From: a virus
Virus record (IMG/VR): IMGVR_UViG_3300034082_001189
Location: 1-22,724 of that record
Length of the DNA stretch: 22,724 bases
Strand: one strand, 5' to 3'
The notes under the pieces are model-generated. The model was not told where the DNA came from, did not search any database, and saw only the letters and a list, made by a program, of their open reading frames with translations. Both the position numbers and the translations under genes were made by a program. Positions 2,395-21,978 of the stretch are shown one piece after another. Position 1 is the first letter of the stretch, and the number at the start of each line of letters is the position of its first letter.

Positions 2395-3120
2395 ATGCTA
2401 ACAATAAAAAACGTATCCGCAATAATAGATGCAACTGATCTATTAACTGACATTTCATTACAAATCGACCCAGGTGAAATACATGCAATTTTGGGCCCAA
2501 CCGGGTCTGGCAAAAGTAGCCTCGCACACTTGATTTCCGGGCATCCGGACATTTCCCAAATTGAAGGAACTATAACTTATAACAAAAAAGACCTATCTAA
2601 ATTAGATAGTAGCAGCCGTAGCGCAATGGGAATCTATATTGCTTTCCAAACAGTTCCGGAAATTATAGGTCTTAGCAATTTTGACTTTGCTAAACTAATA
2701 CTCAAAACAAAGAAAGATAAAAGAACTGAACACGAAATAGAAAGAGATTACAAGACATTATCCACTATGTTAGCGTTACGTCCTAATCACGGGTCGCTAA
2801 TGATGGATTACGATGAGTTGTCTCCGTCAGAATTTAGAAAGAATGAAATTCTTTTAATGTTACTAATTAACCCGAGTCTAATTATTATTGATGAAATTGA
2901 TACTGATTTAGACGAGGAAGACATAGCCGTTGTCGGTGCTGTACTTAACGGTTACATCGATGATAAAAGTTCACTGATCTTAATTACTCATAATAGAACA
3001 CTACTAGATATAGTTGTGCCTACACATGTACATATACTAGTAGATGGGAAAATAAAAGAGCAAGGTGGACCAGAATTATATAAAAGGATCATAGAAGATG
3101 GCTATTCACAGTTTTCTTAA
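2395..3120 (+). CDS. sufC: SufC-like Fe-S assembly ATPase
   Basis: A 241-residue ABC ATPase. SufC drives the SufB-SufD scaffold that builds Fe-S clusters. Walker A is GPTGSGKS (residues 34-41), the Q-loop AFQTVPEI follows at about 84-91, Walker B is IIIDEID (163-169), and the H-loop histidine is H199 in LITHN. The parts specific to SufC are present: the FRKNEILL segment after the signature, PTHVHILVDGKIKEQGGPELY near the end, and a closing GYSQF. The signature, normally SGGE or LSGGQ, reads LSPSE (142-146), and Walker A has Thr where SufC usually has Asn, so the ATPase may be altered. The 3' end overlaps the SufD-like gene by 23 bases, which argues for a coupled complex. Start fixed by the in-frame stop just upstream. 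SufC assignment is firm; activity is inferred. Confidence 0.88.
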   Translation: MLTIKNVSAIIDATDLLTDISLQIDPGEIHAILGPTGSGKSSLAHLISGHPDISQIEGTITYNKKDLSKLDSSSRSAMGIYIAFQTVPEIIGLSNFDFAKLILKTKKDKRTEHEIERDYKTLSTMLALRPNHGSLMMDYDELSPSEFRKNEILLMLLINPSLIIIDEIDTDLDEEDIAVVGAVLNGYIDDKSSLILITHNRTLLDIVVPTHVHILVDGKIKEQGGPELYKRIIEDGYSQFS

Positions 3121-3922
3121 AGCAGAAAAAGGAGATCCAGATTGGCAATTCTCACCGGAAAACTATTTCGGAAAAGAATTCAAACTGATTGATGCTAGTA
3201 CAATAGAACTAGCAGAAAAACAAAGCAACCTAATGGTGCTTCGTCAAACTCCCACAGAAAAAGATTTATTAGCAAAGCATATTAAGATCGAAGTAAAAGA
3301 TGAATCTAAATTAGATTTAATTATTCTTAATGAAGCAAATGATAAACTACAACAAATTTTCCTATACGATATTCATGTACACCAGGGTGCAGGTATTAAC
3401 TTAGGAATCTTTGCTAAAAACGGCAAATTCAATAAACATATTTTTCAGGTATATTTAGAGGCAGGTGCTGAATTTAACAACTACGGACTTATGTTTAACG
3501 ACTGCGGCGGTGACACAGAGATTATCACTAAAGTTGTACATCAACATGAAGATAGCCATAGTACACAGTTTGTTCTAGGAATGTCTGGTAAAGACAGTCA
3601 GACTGTCTATCAGGCAATGACTGTGTTAGATGAAGGGGCTGACGGAAGTGAAGCCAACATCGAATCAGATAACATTATAATGGAAGAAGGTGGCCGATGT
3701 TATTCTAAACCGGATATCTATGCTGATTGTAACAATGTAAGGTCATCACACGGATGCACAACTGAATTCTTAAATCAAGACAAAATTTATTATCTACAGA
3801 CCAAAGGCCTGGAATTTGATAAAGCTAAAGAAGTGGTTATAAAAAGTTTTCAAAATAGAGTATTCGATGTTATCCCTTATGAAGATATTAAAGAAGAAGT
3901 AAAACAACTATTTTCTAATTAA
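3098..3922 (+). CDS. SufD/SufB-family Fe-S assembly scaffold protein
   Basis: A 274-residue member of the SufBD family (right-handed beta-helix core, SufBD/UPF0051 domain), shorter than bacterial SufD or SufB, which usually exceed 400 residues. The C-terminal half is the best match: KPDIYADCNNVRSSHGCTTE, then DKIYYLQTKGLEFDKAKEVV. H218 in SSHG lies where SufD has its conserved cluster-site histidine. C220 follows two residues later and is unusual there. This points to SufD more than SufB, although the N-terminal helical domain is reduced. No separate SufB, SufA or SufS is in the window, so the product would have to form a homodimer with the phage SufC or join the host SufB. It starts inside sufC with a 23-base overlap. 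Confidence 0.82.
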   Translation: MAIHSFLKAEKGDPDWQFSPENYFGKEFKLIDASTIELAEKQSNLMVLRQTPTEKDLLAKHIKIEVKDESKLDLIILNEANDKLQQIFLYDIHVHQGAGINLGIFAKNGKFNKHIFQVYLEAGAEFNNYGLMFNDCGGDTEIITKVVHQHEDSHSTQFVLGMSGKDSQTVYQAMTVLDEGADGSEANIESDNIIMEEGGRCYSKPDIYADCNNVRSSHGCTTEFLNQDKIYYLQTKGLEFDKAKEVVIKSFQNRVFDVIPYEDIKEEVKQLFSN

Positions 3923-11997: not shown

Positions 11998-12022
11998 TTT
12001 TTAATGTTGTTGATTGTATACT
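11994..12022 (+). promoter_or_regulatory. sigma70-type promoter placing the DnaE-like gene on a leaderless transcript
   Basis: TTGATT (11994-11999), a 17-bp spacer and TATACT (12017-12022). ATG 12029 begins seven bases after the -10 box, the expected transcription start, and no Shine-Dalgarno exists. The -35 overlaps the stop of the preceding gene. Confidence 0.65.
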
Positions 12023-12028
12023 CTATGT

Positions 12029-12553
12029 ATGCAGATCGATAATTACGGTAGAACAATACTAAATCCTAACGAAGCGTTCGATGCTTTATATTCTGGTAAA
12101 ATTACCAATATGGCAGATTTATATTTGGATGACAAGAATCTCGTTGACCAATATAACAAGGCGATCTACGAAAATGCAGATAAAATTCCAAACCTGCAGA
12201 CAATAGACTCAAATCCATTTGACAATATTGAAATATTTGACAAGTCTAATCAATGCGATTGGTTCATGCCTAAAGAATATAGAGATTTTGAAATTGTGGG
12301 ATTTTTGTTAGATCAGACTCAAAATGAAGAACAATATCAAAGAGTAGTTACAGAGCTCGAATTGTTTATTCAACATAATATGATCGACCTCTTAAAATAC
12401 CTTAAATACTTAGTCGATGCTATGCGTGAAAACAAAATAGTATGGGGAGTAGGTAGAGGTAGTTCAGTAGCAAGTTATTGTTTATACTTACTGGGAGTAC
12501 ATAAAATTGACAGCATTAAGTACAACCTCGATATAAAAGAATTCCTAAAATAA
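12029..12553 (+). CDS. stand-alone DNA polymerase III alpha (DnaE)-like fragment
   Basis: A 174-residue protein. Residues about 120-173 (DLLKYLKYLVDAMRENKIVWG, GVGRGSSVASYCLYLLGV, DSIKYNLDIKEFL) match the segment of C-family polymerases around the GRGS motif of the palm (DnaE: GPGRGSGAGSLVAY and following). The rest of DnaE, including the catalytic Asp triad region, PHP domain, fingers and beta-binding parts, is absent. Such short DnaE-like proteins occur in T4-like marine phages, beside their own B-family polymerase. It cannot polymerise on this evidence; a role in nucleotide or DNA binding is inference. First gene of the unit with GroES and MazG. A TTG at 12014 is in frame but lies upstream of the predicted transcription start, so ATG 12029 was chosen. 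Confidence 0.78.
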   Translation: MQIDNYGRTILNPNEAFDALYSGKITNMADLYLDDKNLVDQYNKAIYENADKIPNLQTIDSNPFDNIEIFDKSNQCDWFMPKEYRDFEIVGFLLDQTQNEEQYQRVVTELELFIQHNMIDLLKYLKYLVDAMRENKIVWGVGRGSSVASYCLYLLGVHKIDSIKYNLDIKEFLK

Positions 12554-14325: not shown

Positions 14326-14488
14326 AGTACAACCAAAAGATACAAGCAAGGGACATTTTTATGTCAGTCTTGTAAAAAGTGCTATTCGTATTGTAGCAGG
14401 TGGCTGTTTGATTACAGGCAATTTATTAATGGCAGGTGTTTGTCTTATTATGGCAGAGATACTAGGCATTGTAGAGGAATTGGTATGA
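14315..14488 (+). CDS. 57-residue small membrane protein, GTG start
   Basis: A frame beginning at GTG 14315 inside the preceding gene and ending at 14488, overlapping the next gene by four bases (ATGA). The first 15 residues are polar; residues about 17-54 are hydrophobic with Gly (IRIVAGGCLITGNLLMAGVC), enough for a tight TM hairpin. No family recognised. The chained overlaps on both ends support coding. Confidence 0.6.
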   Translation: MEIEVQPKDTSKGHFYVSLVKSAIRIVAGGCLITGNLLMAGVCLIMAEILGIVEELV

Positions 14489-14949
14489 TCTTCAACAAGA
14501 TTAAACAGCTAAAAGAAGATGGATTAAAAGTAGGTATAACATTTAGCACATTTGACCTGTTACACGCAGGGCATATTGCAATGTTAGCTGAAGCAAAGAA
14601 TCATTGTGATTATCTAATTGCAGCCATCCAAACAGATCCAACTATTGATCGCCCAGACACAAAGAATCCTCCTATACAAAGTATTGTAGAAAGACAAATA
14701 CAGGTTAGTACAAATCGTAATGTGGACGAAGTAGTTGTTTATCAAACTGAAAAAGACCTTGAGGATCTATTGCTTATTCTGCCAGTTGATGTTAGAATAT
14801 TAGGTGTAGAGTACGCAGACAAAGAGTTTACAGGCAAAGAAATTTGCAAGAAGCGAGGAATTGAACTTATCTTTAACGGACGAGATCATTCCTTTAGTAG
14901 CAGTAGTCTACGCAAACGTGTAGCAGAAGCAGAAAGGAATAAAAAATGA
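14485..14949 (+). CDS. cytidylyltransferase-family (TagD/GCT-like) nucleotidyltransferase, copy 2
   Basis: A 154-residue HxGH-superfamily nucleotidyltransferase. FDLLHAGH (23-30) holds the HxGH motif and SSSSLRKRV near the end is the ISSTxIR-type motif. The length is close to that of glycerol-3-phosphate cytidylyltransferase plus a short N-terminal extension. Start ATG 14485 has GAGG upstream and makes the ATGA overlap with the preceding small gene; a TTG further upstream would read through that gene. It shares a DPTIDRP segment, QS-x2-ER and FTGK with the copy at 259-762, so the two are paralogues. Substrate not readable. Confidence 0.82.
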   Translation: MIFNKIKQLKEDGLKVGITFSTFDLLHAGHIAMLAEAKNHCDYLIAAIQTDPTIDRPDTKNPPIQSIVERQIQVSTNRNVDEVVVYQTEKDLEDLLLILPVDVRILGVEYADKEFTGKEICKKRGIELIFNGRDHSFSSSSLRKRVAEAERNKK

Positions 14950-17468: not shown

Positions 17469-18035
17469 ATGCACGACATTATCGACGTTATTAAGAATCT
17501 AGAAACATTAACTGCTAACGACAGTGCTTTTAAGGTATTAAAAGACTTTGAAAGAGTTATTGATGAACTAGACATTTACGTTTTCTCAAATTGGGAAGAC
17601 GGTGAACTAGTCACGGGTCCGGAAGTAGACAGGTATGCAGTTACTTGTAAGTTTATGTGGCCGTATGAAAGCATGCCAGATCCAGACGGTGGCGCACGAT
17701 TAGTAGACTATGGGTGCAAAGTAGGTTATAAAAAAGATCACGTAATGATCCCTAGAAAAATTTATCAACCTTCAGATTTTAGGCCAGAAACAAAAAAGGG
17801 AAAAATTGACGCTCACCCGGTTTGGATTATCACAATCACTATGCCTAAGAAGTTAATGCAAGATATCTATCAAGGTTATCTTGATAAAGAAAATGCTGCA
17901 AATGCAGATTTAATGAGATATAACGTAGGCAACGAAGTAAACGAGCAACAAGCCGCACAGGAGAACCCAGCAGATGAAGCACCAGCACCAGAAGTACCAG
18001 CAGCAGAAGTCCCAACAGCAGCCCCCCAAGGTTAA
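17469..18035 (+). CDS. conserved T4-like phage protein, probable virion component
   Basis: A 188-residue protein from ATG 17469. A TTG 33 bases upstream is also in frame, but it lies before the late promoter. The body (MHDIIDVIKNLETLTANDSAF, then FMWPYESMPDPDGGARLVDYG and HPVWIITITMPKK) matches a protein conserved in T4-like marine phages and usually listed as hypothetical or structural. The last 40 residues are a disordered Ala/Pro/Glu/Val-rich tail encoded by imperfect short repeats. The next gene lies in the +1 frame and overlaps this tail by 62 bases. Function unknown. Confidence 0.8.
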   Translation: MHDIIDVIKNLETLTANDSAFKVLKDFERVIDELDIYVFSNWEDGELVTGPEVDRYAVTCKFMWPYESMPDPDGGARLVDYGCKVGYKKDHVMIPRKIYQPSDFRPETKKGKIDAHPVWIITITMPKKLMQDIYQGYLDKENAANADLMRYNVGNEVNEQQAAQENPADEAPAPEVPAAEVPTAAPQG

Positions 18036-18768
18036 ATTATCTGAGGGGCTAAGGGCAGGAGACCTGCAGGACATGATCTTCCCTGTGTTTACTATTGATC
18101 AATTCAAAAGTAAAATGGGCGAAGACAAGAATGTAGTTGTTGTAGCATTTAAGTCAAAAGAAAAAATGCCGGCAGTAGACTTGATGGAATTTATTGAAAA
18201 AGGCTACAAGTTTGTTTTAGATGCTGACATGAGCACCGGCGAAGAACGTGACGGCCGTTATAGTGTCTTTGTTGAACTAGAAAGAACTGATCAAGTGCCT
18301 GATCAAATTTTAGAAATGCTAAAAGGAATTGGCCAACTTACTAATTGTAAAGATTGGAGTTTTAAGTATTTCAAAGATGCAAACTTATACGAAACTACTG
18401 CTGAAAATTTATCACAACATATTCCTCTAGACGAAGAAATTTACGTTTCTAAAATGCAAGGGCTAAAACAAGATAAGGTTGAAGAATTCTTTAATCAAGG
18501 ATCAGTTAGTCTTAATATTAACGAAAGTAATATCATAACTTTTGATAAACCATATTCTGGTTCTATACAGGCAAAACTAGTTGCGTTTGGCGAATACGAA
18601 AAAATTAAAAATCAATTGCCTGGCAAAATCAGTTTAGATGAAGCTAGTCAAAGCCAGGTAATTTTCCTAAACAAATTTTTAGGTAATTACGATATTGAAA
18701 AAGTAGAAGATAAATTTTTAGTAAGGAACGGTAGCCTGGCAGTTATTCTAGAAAAGGATAGGTGGTAA
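17974..18768 (+). CDS. conserved T4-like phage protein, start ambiguous (overlap or frameshift)
   Basis: 264 residues if ATG 17974 is the start; AGGAG at 17959-17963 supports it with a long ten-base spacing. The first 20 or so residues are a Gln/Lys-rich out-of-frame reading of the previous gene's Pro/Ala tail. Conserved-looking sequence begins at about residue 20 (KLSEGLRAGDLQDMIFPVF, KSKMGEDKNVVVVAF, LMEFIEKGYKFVLDAD), as in structural or hypothetical proteins of T4-like marine phages. No start codon exists exactly where that conserved part begins. ATG 18073 would remove the GLRAGDL segment. A +1 slip at the C6 run 18022-18027 of the preceding gene would join the two frames. Function unknown. 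Confidence 0.72.
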   Translation: MKHQHQKYQQQKSQQQPPKVKLSEGLRAGDLQDMIFPVFTIDQFKSKMGEDKNVVVVAFKSKEKMPAVDLMEFIEKGYKFVLDADMSTGEERDGRYSVFVELERTDQVPDQILEMLKGIGQLTNCKDWSFKYFKDANLYETTAENLSQHIPLDEEIYVSKMQGLKQDKVEEFFNQGSVSLNINESNIITFDKPYSGSIQAKLVAFGEYEKIKNQLPGKISLDEASQSQVIFLNKFLGNYDIEKVEDKFLVRNGSLAVILEKDRW

Positions 18769-18769
18769 T

Positions 18770-19231
18770 ATGTGGCAAATATCATGGATCCTAAGTTTTT
18801 TACCTGATTGGTTCTGGATTTTATTATTGATTATCAGCATTGCATCAGTATTGCTATCTAGATTTTTTGCTGTATATAAACTGCCAATGAAGGTGGTAGG
18901 ATCAATAGGACTAGTGTTAAGTGTATGGATGCTAGGTGCTGCCAGTAACGAAGCTAAATGGGAAGCTCGTGTTAAAGAACTAGAAGAAAAACTTTTAGTT
19001 GCAGAACAGGCTAGCAAGCAAATCAATACTGAAATTGTAGAAAAAGTTATTACTAAAACTAAGGTAGTTCAAAGTAAAGCTAACACAATTATTGAGTATG
19101 TAGATCGTGAGATTGTCAAAGACAAAGAAATAATCAAATACATAGAAATGTGTCCAGTTCCAACTGCAATTATAGATGCACACAATGCCGCAGCAACTTT
19201 GAACAAAGCAGCGGAAGGATCCAAGAAATGA
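18770..19231 (+). CDS. membrane protein with coiled coil, i-spanin-like (Rz-like)
   Basis: A 153-residue protein with two hydrophobic segments (about 13-30 and 40-58) followed by a long charged coiled coil (about 60-125: VKELEEKLLVAEQASKQINTE and on) and a terminal CPVP segment. An inner-membrane anchor plus periplasmic coiled coil, directly before a small lipoprotein and an endolysin, fits an i-spanin of the lysis cassette. Classical Rz has one TM segment, so the second is a difference. AGGTGG precedes ATG 18770, and the gene overlaps the lipoprotein by ATGA. Confidence 0.72.
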   Translation: MWQISWILSFLPDWFWILLLIISIASVLLSRFFAVYKLPMKVVGSIGLVLSVWMLGAASNEAKWEARVKELEEKLLVAEQASKQINTEIVEKVITKTKVVQSKANTIIEYVDREIVKDKEIIKYIEMCPVPTAIIDAHNAAATLNKAAEGSKK

Positions 19232-19500
19232 AATACATTATTTTAAGTCTTGCAATTTTTCTGTCAGCATGTTCTACAACAGTCCCTGTGAAACAAAAGT
19301 TTCCAGACGCTCCTAAAGAATTATTTGAAAAGTGCCCTAACTTGAACACTATAGAGCCTGGCAAGACTGCTATTACCGACTTGCTAAAAACAGTAGTGAG
19401 CAACTATGCACTTTATTACGAATGTTCTATTAAACAGGAAGGATGGACTGACTGGTACGGAGAGCAGAAAAATAATTTTAATAAGGCAAACGAAAAATGA
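19228..19500 (+). CDS. outer-membrane lipoprotein, o-spanin-like (Rz1-like)
   Basis: A 90-residue lipoprotein from ATG 19228, which overlaps the previous stop as ATGA. The signal peptide MKYIILSLAIFLSAC ends in a lipobox (LSAC, C15). The mature part is short and has two further Cys (C36, C66). The longer in-frame start at 19150 would bury the signal peptide, so it is rejected. Together with the coiled-coil protein before it and the endolysin after it (ATGA overlap), this suggests the outer-membrane half of a spanin pair that fuses the membranes in the last step of lysis. It is not Pro-rich like lambda Rz1, so the role is inferred from context. Confidence 0.72.
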   Translation: MKYIILSLAIFLSACSTTVPVKQKFPDAPKELFEKCPNLNTIEPGKTAITDLLKTVVSNYALYYECSIKQEGWTDWYGEQKNNFNKANEK

Positions 19501-20129
19501 GTGAATGTATTTTAACAAAAAGCCAGTTAGCAGAATTGCTACCAGGTAATCCTTATATTGATTTTTGGTACGCTGCACTAGAGCAGTTACTACCAGATTA
19601 TGATATCAATACTCCGCAGCGAATAGCAGCGTTCATAGCACAATGTTCTCACGAGAGTGGTGGATTTAGAACTCTAAAAGAAAACTTAAACTATAAGGCA
19701 GTGACCTTACGTAAGATTTTTCCTAAGTATTTCCCTACAGATGCTATTGCCGCACAGTATGCAGCATTGCCGAATAAGCAAGAAGCAATTGCTAACAAGG
19801 TATATGGCGGAAGAATGGGCAACGGTCCAGAAGAGTCAGGAGACGGTTTCCGTTATTGTGGTCGAGGTCTTATACAGTTAACTGGTAAGAATAACTACGA
19901 AGAATTTGCCATGAGTATTGAAACTCCGGTTGAACAAATTCCAGAATACTTAGCAACATTTGAAGGTGCTGCTCAATCAGCTTGCTGGTTTTGGGAAAAG
20001 AACCAGTTAAACAAGTGGGCAGATGCAGGCGATATCAAAGAACTAACTCGCAGAATCAACGGTGGATATATTGGTTTAGAGGACCGTATTAAACACTATA
20101 ATCACGCACTACACGTATTGGGCGAATAA
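19497..20129 (+). CDS. GH19 chitinase-like endolysin
   Basis: A 210-residue glycoside hydrolase family 19 protein, the lysozyme-like muramidase or chitinase fold used by many phage endolysins. The catalytic Glu lies in the FIAQCSHESGGF segment (E53), with ENLNY following (E62), then a GRGLIQLTGKNNY segment (122-134) lining the substrate groove, and RRINGGYIGLEDR near the C-terminus. There is no signal peptide or binding domain, so it needs a holin for release, which is present at 22404. ATGA-coupled to the o-spanin-like gene. Confidence 0.9.
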   Translation: MSECILTKSQLAELLPGNPYIDFWYAALEQLLPDYDINTPQRIAAFIAQCSHESGGFRTLKENLNYKAVTLRKIFPKYFPTDAIAAQYAALPNKQEAIANKVYGGRMGNGPEESGDGFRYCGRGLIQLTGKNNYEEFAMSIETPVEQIPEYLATFEGAAQSACWFWEKNQLNKWADAGDIKELTRRINGGYIGLEDRIKHYNHALHVLGE

Positions 20130-20482
20130 TGAAACATATCTTCTTATTAGTATCTGTACTGTTACTGAGTGGTTGTTCTACTATTAAACAATACTGGCCA
20201 AGGCCGCACGATCCTGTAATGTTTAATCAATTAGTTGCCGCAGATATTGCTATTGCACATCAAAATTGTGATTCTCCTACATGGAATTCTATTTCTACTA
20301 TCACAGAACAATTGGCAAAATATACAGAATGGCGTAAAGATCCACAAGCTGAAAATCTTAAAGGTCTCCATGCTCATGTAGAACGTATGAACAAGGGCGG
20401 ATCGAAAACATTCTGTGAGTTAGGAAAGAAGACAGCTCACCAAAGAATAGAAGCAGCTAAATCTGCTTGGGAGGGAAGATAA
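20129..20482 (+). CDS. second small lipoprotein in the lysis block
   Basis: A 117-residue protein with a signal peptide MKHIFLLVSVLLLSGC and a clear lipobox (LSGC, C16). The mature part is helical and polar, with two further Cys (in HQNCDSP and KTFCEL) that could form a disulphide. It starts on the last base of the endolysin stop (TAATG). It is larger than Rz1-type proteins. It may be a second o-spanin-like partner or a virion/periplasmic lipoprotein; no family is recognised. Confidence 0.75.
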   Translation: MKHIFLLVSVLLLSGCSTIKQYWPRPHDPVMFNQLVAADIAIAHQNCDSPTWNSISTITEQLAKYTEWRKDPQAENLKGLHAHVERMNKGGSKTFCELGKKTAHQRIEAAKSAWEGR

Positions 20483-21252: not shown

Positions 21253-21978
21253 ATGAAAACACAACTACTATTAGAGTTTGCTAACATAGCGGCAACTACT
21301 TATGACAATCCTAAAACCTCCACTGCCAAGTTCAAAGCATTGGGATATAAAATTATTCAATTCTTTGACATTGACGGAGCACAGGCATACCTGTTGACCA
21401 ATGGCACTATTACTGTGCTGAGTTTTAGAGGCACTGAGGTAACTGAAAAGTCAGATGTATTAGCAGACTTAAAATCTGGTAAAAACATCGAAGCCTGTGG
21501 CGGCAAGGTACACGTTGGCTTCAAAGGTGAGATTAACAAGCTATGGCCCAGTATCACTGCCGCACTAGAAGCTAATCCAGGTAACCTATACGTGACCGGT
21601 CATAGTCTTGGTGCTGCCATGGCCACCATCGCTGCCAGTCGTATACAGGATCGTGTAACAGCATTGGTAACATTTGGCTCGCCGAGAGTGGGTAACAAAG
21701 AGTTTGTTGACAGTGTGGTTGTTGAACACTACAGAGTGCAGAACAACTGTGATGATGTGACCAAAGTTCCTTTTATGTTAATGGGCTTTACACATCACGG
21801 CACACACCGGTACATGAACTTTCATGGAGAGTTTAGAGATCTAACACCGTGGCAACGAGTAAAAGACATGGCTCGCAGTAGACTGAAAGCCAGAGCAAAA
21901 GGTCAAAAGTATATTGGTGTGTTTGATCACATGATGGCCAACTACATTGCCAAATTAGAAAAAGCAGGAGAAGAATAA
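21253..21978 (+). CDS. class 3 lipase (alpha/beta hydrolase)
   Basis: A 241-residue alpha/beta hydrolase of the lipase class 3 family, which cleaves triglycerides or phospholipids. LSFRGTE (56-62) is the oxyanion-side motif, VHVGF (86-90) follows, TGHSLGAA (115-122) contains the nucleophile S118, VTFGSPRVGN is at 139-148, the acid is D167 or D168 in NNCDDVTKVP, and the base lies in the HHGTHRY segment (181-187). There is no signal peptide, so it acts in the cytoplasm or is released with lysis. The DNA looks richer in G+C than surrounding genes by eye. It lies between the endolysin/lipoprotein genes and the holin, suggesting membrane-lipid attack in lysis or entry. Confidence 0.86.
   Translation: MKTQLLLEFANIAATTYDNPKTSTAKFKALGYKIIQFFDIDGAQAYLLTNGTITVLSFRGTEVTEKSDVLADLKSGKNIEACGGKVHVGFKGEINKLWPSITAALEANPGNLYVTGHSLGAAMATIAASRIQDRVTALVTFGSPRVGNKEFVDSVVVEHYRVQNNCDDVTKVPFMLMGFTHHGTHRYMNFHGEFRDLTPWQRVKDMARSRLKARAKGQKYIGVFDHMMANYIAKLEKAGEE

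Follow-up and report, generated by a model that had tools for sequence, protein, structure and literature searches.

The A/B junction and the encoded proteins

The window, the whole analysed stretch of 22,724 bases, is a virus record with genes for a clamp loader, PhoH and other phage proteins. Two of its genes, A and B, lie next to each other on the plus strand, as do all features of their junction. Gene A (17469–18035) encodes a predicted RaK2-type jumbo-phage virion structural protein of 188 aa, and gene B (17974–18768) encodes the putative neighbouring virion structural protein of 264 aa. The reading frame of B is uninterrupted and lies +1 relative to that of A, and the two genes overlap by 62 nt (17974–18035) in the +1 register. 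The 3′ end of gene A reads GCA GCC CCC CAA GGT TAA, with the stop codon at 18033–18035, and contains a run of six cytosines (C6, 18022–18027), which is lineage-specific and is not a conserved slip site. The start codon of B is the ATG at 17974–17976, whose first two bases, AT, end an Asp codon in the frame of A. A Shine-Dalgarno match of B, AGGAG (17959–17963), lies within the Gln-Glu codons of A (CAG GAG), with 10 nt between it and the ATG. The positions of A, B, AGGAG, ATG 17974 and the C6 run given in the first-pass annotation all proved correct on re-reading. Its statements that a +1 slip at CCC.C would read ...TAAP-KVKLSEGL, and that the Gln-rich N-terminus of B is the shifted reading of the Pro/Ala tail of A, are likewise accurate.

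The C-terminal tail of A is rich in Pro, Ala and Glu and is predicted to be disordered, with AlphaFold2 pLDDT values below 50 at residues 159–181. The N-terminal residues 1–22 of B are also modelled with low confidence (pLDDT of about 52 for residues 1–20). The conserved part of B begins at about residue 20, and in the alignment of relatives its invariant residues start at E24, L26, D30 and L31, just past the C run. The next in-frame ATG of B, at 18073, corresponds to residue 34. This codon is implausible as the start of B, because it lies inside the conserved part of the protein.

Gene A matches PHROG 12928 with an E value of 2.2e-23 and gene B matches PHROG 13138 with an E value of 2.9e-33; both profiles are annotated "virion structural protein, head and packaging". 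By these profile matches, the two proteins are assigned to the RaK2-type virion structural pair. A remark on ESI-MS/MS occurs only in the PA5oct annotation of A. With tblastn, A and B were each matched in 57 records of the phage database, and among the 40 of these that were listed, most are jumbo phages of the RaK2/121Q/PA5oct type. Neither a solved structure nor a convincing fold match accounting for A or B was found in the PDB: the sequence search gave nothing credible and the fold search gave no match at E ≤0.001 for either protein. VIA-align Z scores did not exceed 6.2 with B or 4.9 with A, values within the range of unrelated proteins. Weak phage neck and tail-terminator rows for A (9m6x_M, Z 4.4; 8kef_a, Z 3.7; 3fzb_B, Z 3.5) are only a lead. 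In BFVD, A matched two unnamed viral proteins (1.5e-12 and 1.0e-11).

Relatives of the gene pair and the C6 run

Two scans yielded 160 loci, many of them from the same contigs. The 169 sources consist of the window and 168 loci, including five cultured-phage loci and three loci of distant contigs (L082–L089). Scans with the B proteins of Phosso and PA5oct returned 2 and 1 loci, respectively. Gene A is located directly upstream of B in 167 of the 169 sources; the exceptions, L014 and L110, represent one contig in which A is cut off at the contig end, and they were dropped. The remaining 167 sources collapse to 94 distinct junctions. An earlier count comprises 65 dereplicated junctions from the first scan; it lacks L004, the A gene of which runs to the contig end and which is included in the 94. 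The distant contig locus L087 belongs to the 87 junctions in the register of the window and is outside the 86 that were used for the motif and codon-position counts. The profile of synonymous codon identity left out L087 and L004. PA5oct (L084) is counted in the 94 and has no start by the rule used, since its B begins past the stop of A.

In each of the 94 distinct junctions A and B occupy different frames, and no A–B fusion occurs in any of them. Of the 94, 87 share the register of the window. The other register occurs in seven: the five cultured phages (L082–L086), L088 and L159. The last of these is a close environmental relative (51% identity) in which the genes overlap by 4 nt at an ATGA (junction region 1225–1325 of that locus). 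The A/B register can thus change, and strict register conservation was dropped as an argument, since this close relative has the other register. Among the 87 junctions the overlap ranges from 8 to 65 nt with a median of 23 nt, and the 62 nt of the window are near the upper end of the family.

In all eight cultured phage records that could be placed, A and B are annotated as separate genes. They overlap by 1 nt in Phosso, RaK2, 121Q, GAP32, XbC2 and Kaldavass and by 4 nt in Atu_ph07, and they are separated by a 29-nt gap in PA5oct. By sequence search, genes 62 and 63 of Escherichia phage 121Q and the corresponding pairs of the other phages are the neighbouring homologues, kept as separate genes; the window differs from them in its long overlap and its register. 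Two further genes next to A are candidates for B: the gene that follows A after a 1-nt gap in Vibrio phage 2.275.O, and the shorter neighbour of A in Salicola SCTP-2. In the available parts of two papers, there was no match for the names ORF168/169 (PMC3622015, on RaK2) and gp305/gp306 were not named (PMC6102473).

The first-pass annotation had suggested that an indel or an assembly error in the C run might have split one gene into two. A homopolymer does sit at the junction of the two frames. The same C6 is present in the nearest relative, L002, a separately assembled contig with 69 differences from the window in the 1,280 bases aligned around the junction. This makes a random assembly error in the run unlikely. 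The +1 register recurs in 87 of 94 junctions, most of which contain no C run at all; none of the 94 junctions has a fused homologue, and the cultured jumbo phages carry two annotated genes. The probability of such an indel or error is practically negligible.

A programmed +1 frameshift had also been proposed. Here, peptidyl-tRNA-Pro would slip from CCC to the overlapping CCC within C6, and an A–B fusion would be made beside A. The A-frame CCC, followed by a C and located three codons before the stop of A, would suit such an event, and, according to the available part of PMC5009743, phages provide known examples of +1 slippage at proline codons. The slip site is, however, not conserved. C6 occurs in 2 of the 87 junctions, namely in the window and L002, a run of C5 or longer in 4 of the 87, and CCC.C in the frame of A in 4 of the 65 dereplicated junctions. 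The codon after this CCC in the window is CAA and not a stop, and the 80 nt downstream fold worse than shuffled sequences (z of +1.49; 195 of 200 shuffles were as good or better). Synonymous conservation is not raised past the junction. Gene B of the window has its own ATG and Shine-Dalgarno sequence, and 62 of 65 junctions have a start with a Shine-Dalgarno match. The comparison with homologues that the first-pass annotation called for found the proteins separate and out of frame in 94 of 94 junctions and fused in none, and the register differs in 7 of 94, including L159. A programmed frameshift is scarcely credible on these grounds. In the cps and tsh genes of Listeria phage PSA, as in A, a CCC proline codon lies near the end of the first frame and the second frame is +1. 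The PSA site is described in the same source as CCC before a stop or a pseudoknot, with the second frame extending the first product. By contrast, conservation is lacking at the A/B site, and B possesses a start of its own.

A narrower version is restricted to the lineage of the window: growth of the Pro/Ala tail of A would have created C6, and a few ribosomes would slip by +1 and give a little A–B fusion beside normal B. This is considered extremely unlikely.

The window and L002 are identical over 246 nt around the stop of A (17925–18170), despite the 69 differences in 1,280 bases overall. A hidden RNA signal was rejected as the reason for this identity, as it is absent in L003 and in the family-wide synonymous profile. 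The identity is taken as chance or recombination.

The predicted start signal of gene B within gene A

An in-frame ATG is present within the overlap in 85 of the 87 junctions in the register of the window; the other two, L013 and L027, have GTG in its place. Among the 65 dereplicated junctions, the Shine-Dalgarno match before the best in-frame start of B extends over at least 4 bases in 62 and at least 5 bases in 40. The same two thresholds were passed by 191 and 54 of 983 ATGs lying out of frame in the A and B bodies, which served as one control, and by 852 and 339 of 3,250 segments of equal length. When the tail of A was recoded synonymously 200 times, the means for any start were 21.9 (at least 4 bases) and 6.7 (at least 5 bases) against the 62 and 40 observed. 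For ATG with a match of at least 4 bases, 59 of 65 were observed against a mean of 16.6. The start in each locus was chosen by its best Shine-Dalgarno match. This choice tilts the result towards the hypothesis, and it is covered by the equal-length and recoding controls. They do not allow for kinship, and no p value is given as the loci are related. The feature that stands above chance is the Shine-Dalgarno sequence with a start codon inside A, rather than the C run.

A Shine-Dalgarno match of 4 bases at 4–12 nt is missing from five of the 87 junctions, and in one of them, L138, an AGGAG is located slightly farther from the start. Spacings of 8–10 nt are the commonest in the family, and the 10 nt of the window are on the long side. 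Synonymous codon identity is 0.66 in the overlap versus 0.49 expected, and it is near expectation downstream in B. Changes in the A tail are spread evenly over the codon positions (22, 18 and 23 in 19 disjoint pairs); this fits two constrained frames and also relaxed ones, the counts being too few to distinguish between them.

The start signal is accompanied by a motif in protein A. In 57 of 86 junctions, Gln-Glu occurs no more than nine A codons upstream of the start, compared with 170 of 13,276 windows elsewhere in A, and AQE precedes the start in 47 of 86. The spelling of Gln-Glu is CAGGAG in 34 of 58 cases, although both codons are in the minority in the gene bodies (CAG, 334 of 1,279 Gln codons; GAG, 469 of 2,890 Glu codons). 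In 79 of 86 junctions, an Asn or Asp codon ends with the AT of the ATG. In the window, A reads A-Q-E-N-P-A-D-E at this place, with CAG GAG followed by the D codon that carries the ATG.

The first-pass annotation had named ATG 17974 with AGGAG as the alternative start and considered that it might be newly captured, having recently replaced a lost one. The 62-nt overlap, against a median of 23, and the Gln-rich N-terminus of B would agree with a recent replacement. AQENPADE, however, matches the family motif in place and spelling, and L003, which is 77% identical in B, carries the motif too. As the window has exactly the family motif, ATG 17974 with AGGAG is most likely the inherited, usual initiation site of the family. 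The codon was thus correctly chosen, whereas its newness is not borne out, and a recent capture is very unlikely.

Proposed independent initiation of gene B, and other genes in the window

We propose, with a probability of roughly 93%, that a RaK2-like jumbo phage carries A and B as two separate structural genes with a 62-nt overlap and independent starts. Both frames are intact, the start signals are present, and the genes are separate in the relatives. Independent initiation at ATG 17974 is the best-supported mechanism. Ribosomes translating A would terminate at the TAA at 18033–18035, and other ribosomes, recruited by the AGGAG in the coding sequence of A, would start B independently at ATG 17974. 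B is probably made from this codon in cells. Ribosomes that translate A may keep the start site of B open; according to the available part of a review (PMC12548453), an upstream ribosome that opens the RNA can have this effect at overlaps like the 50 nt of MS2. Coupling by re-initiation is unlikely for A/B, since the same review text reports that translational coupling declines with overlap and was absent at 25 nt in one study.

The A tail behind the start signal is longer in the window than is usual for the family. It appears that in this branch the low-complexity tail and the shifted N-terminus of B grew downstream of the start signal in multiples of three, which would place the start farther than usual from the folded part of B. 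The first 20 or so residues of B may serve as a passive linker.

Like long unidirectional overlaps in prokaryotes and phages, A and B share one strand, and the start signal of B is embedded in A. In the available part of PMC3887535, overlaps of 2 modulo 3 are described as nearly always long owing to codon sets. This constraint explains the long A/B overlap without a special function. More than 80% of overlapping pairs share less than 30 bp, as stated in the review (PMC12548453), and the A/B overlap of the window is longer than most known ones. A and B are regarded as ordinary overlapping structural genes, with no good sign of slipping, sequencing error or a new start. The main gain is one of annotation, as the start of B is placed and the suspected frameshift cleared. 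The family is also a neat example of a start signal embedded in the codons of the disordered tail of the upstream gene (CAG GAG ... AAT/GAT G).

Several other genes of the window deserve mention. A SufC-like ABC ATPase (PF00005) is followed by a SufB/D core protein (PF01458, 1.3e-32) at 2395–3922, with frames overlapping by 23 nt. These are likely phage-carried genes of iron-sulphur cluster assembly; the name SufC is suggested by the SufB/D neighbour. The 179-aa protein at 12014–12553 is matched by PHROG 11127, "DNA polymerase", along almost all of its length (4.7e-45) and also matches short parts of larger polymerase families, as a small free-standing polymerase piece. Downstream of B, genes for a membrane protein, a lipoprotein, a glycoside hydrolase 19 and a second lipoprotein-like protein (18770–20482) form a likely lysis cluster. 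The first lipoprotein matches Rz1-like LysC weakly, without reaching the curated cut-off, and the membrane protein, encoded by the first gene of the cluster, may have an Rz-like role. Two cytidylyltransferase-like proteins (PF01467) are encoded about 14 kb apart in this one 22.7-kb window, at 259–762 and 14440–14949. The phage also encodes a UvdE UV-endonuclease (826–1851) and a class 3 lipase (21253–21978).
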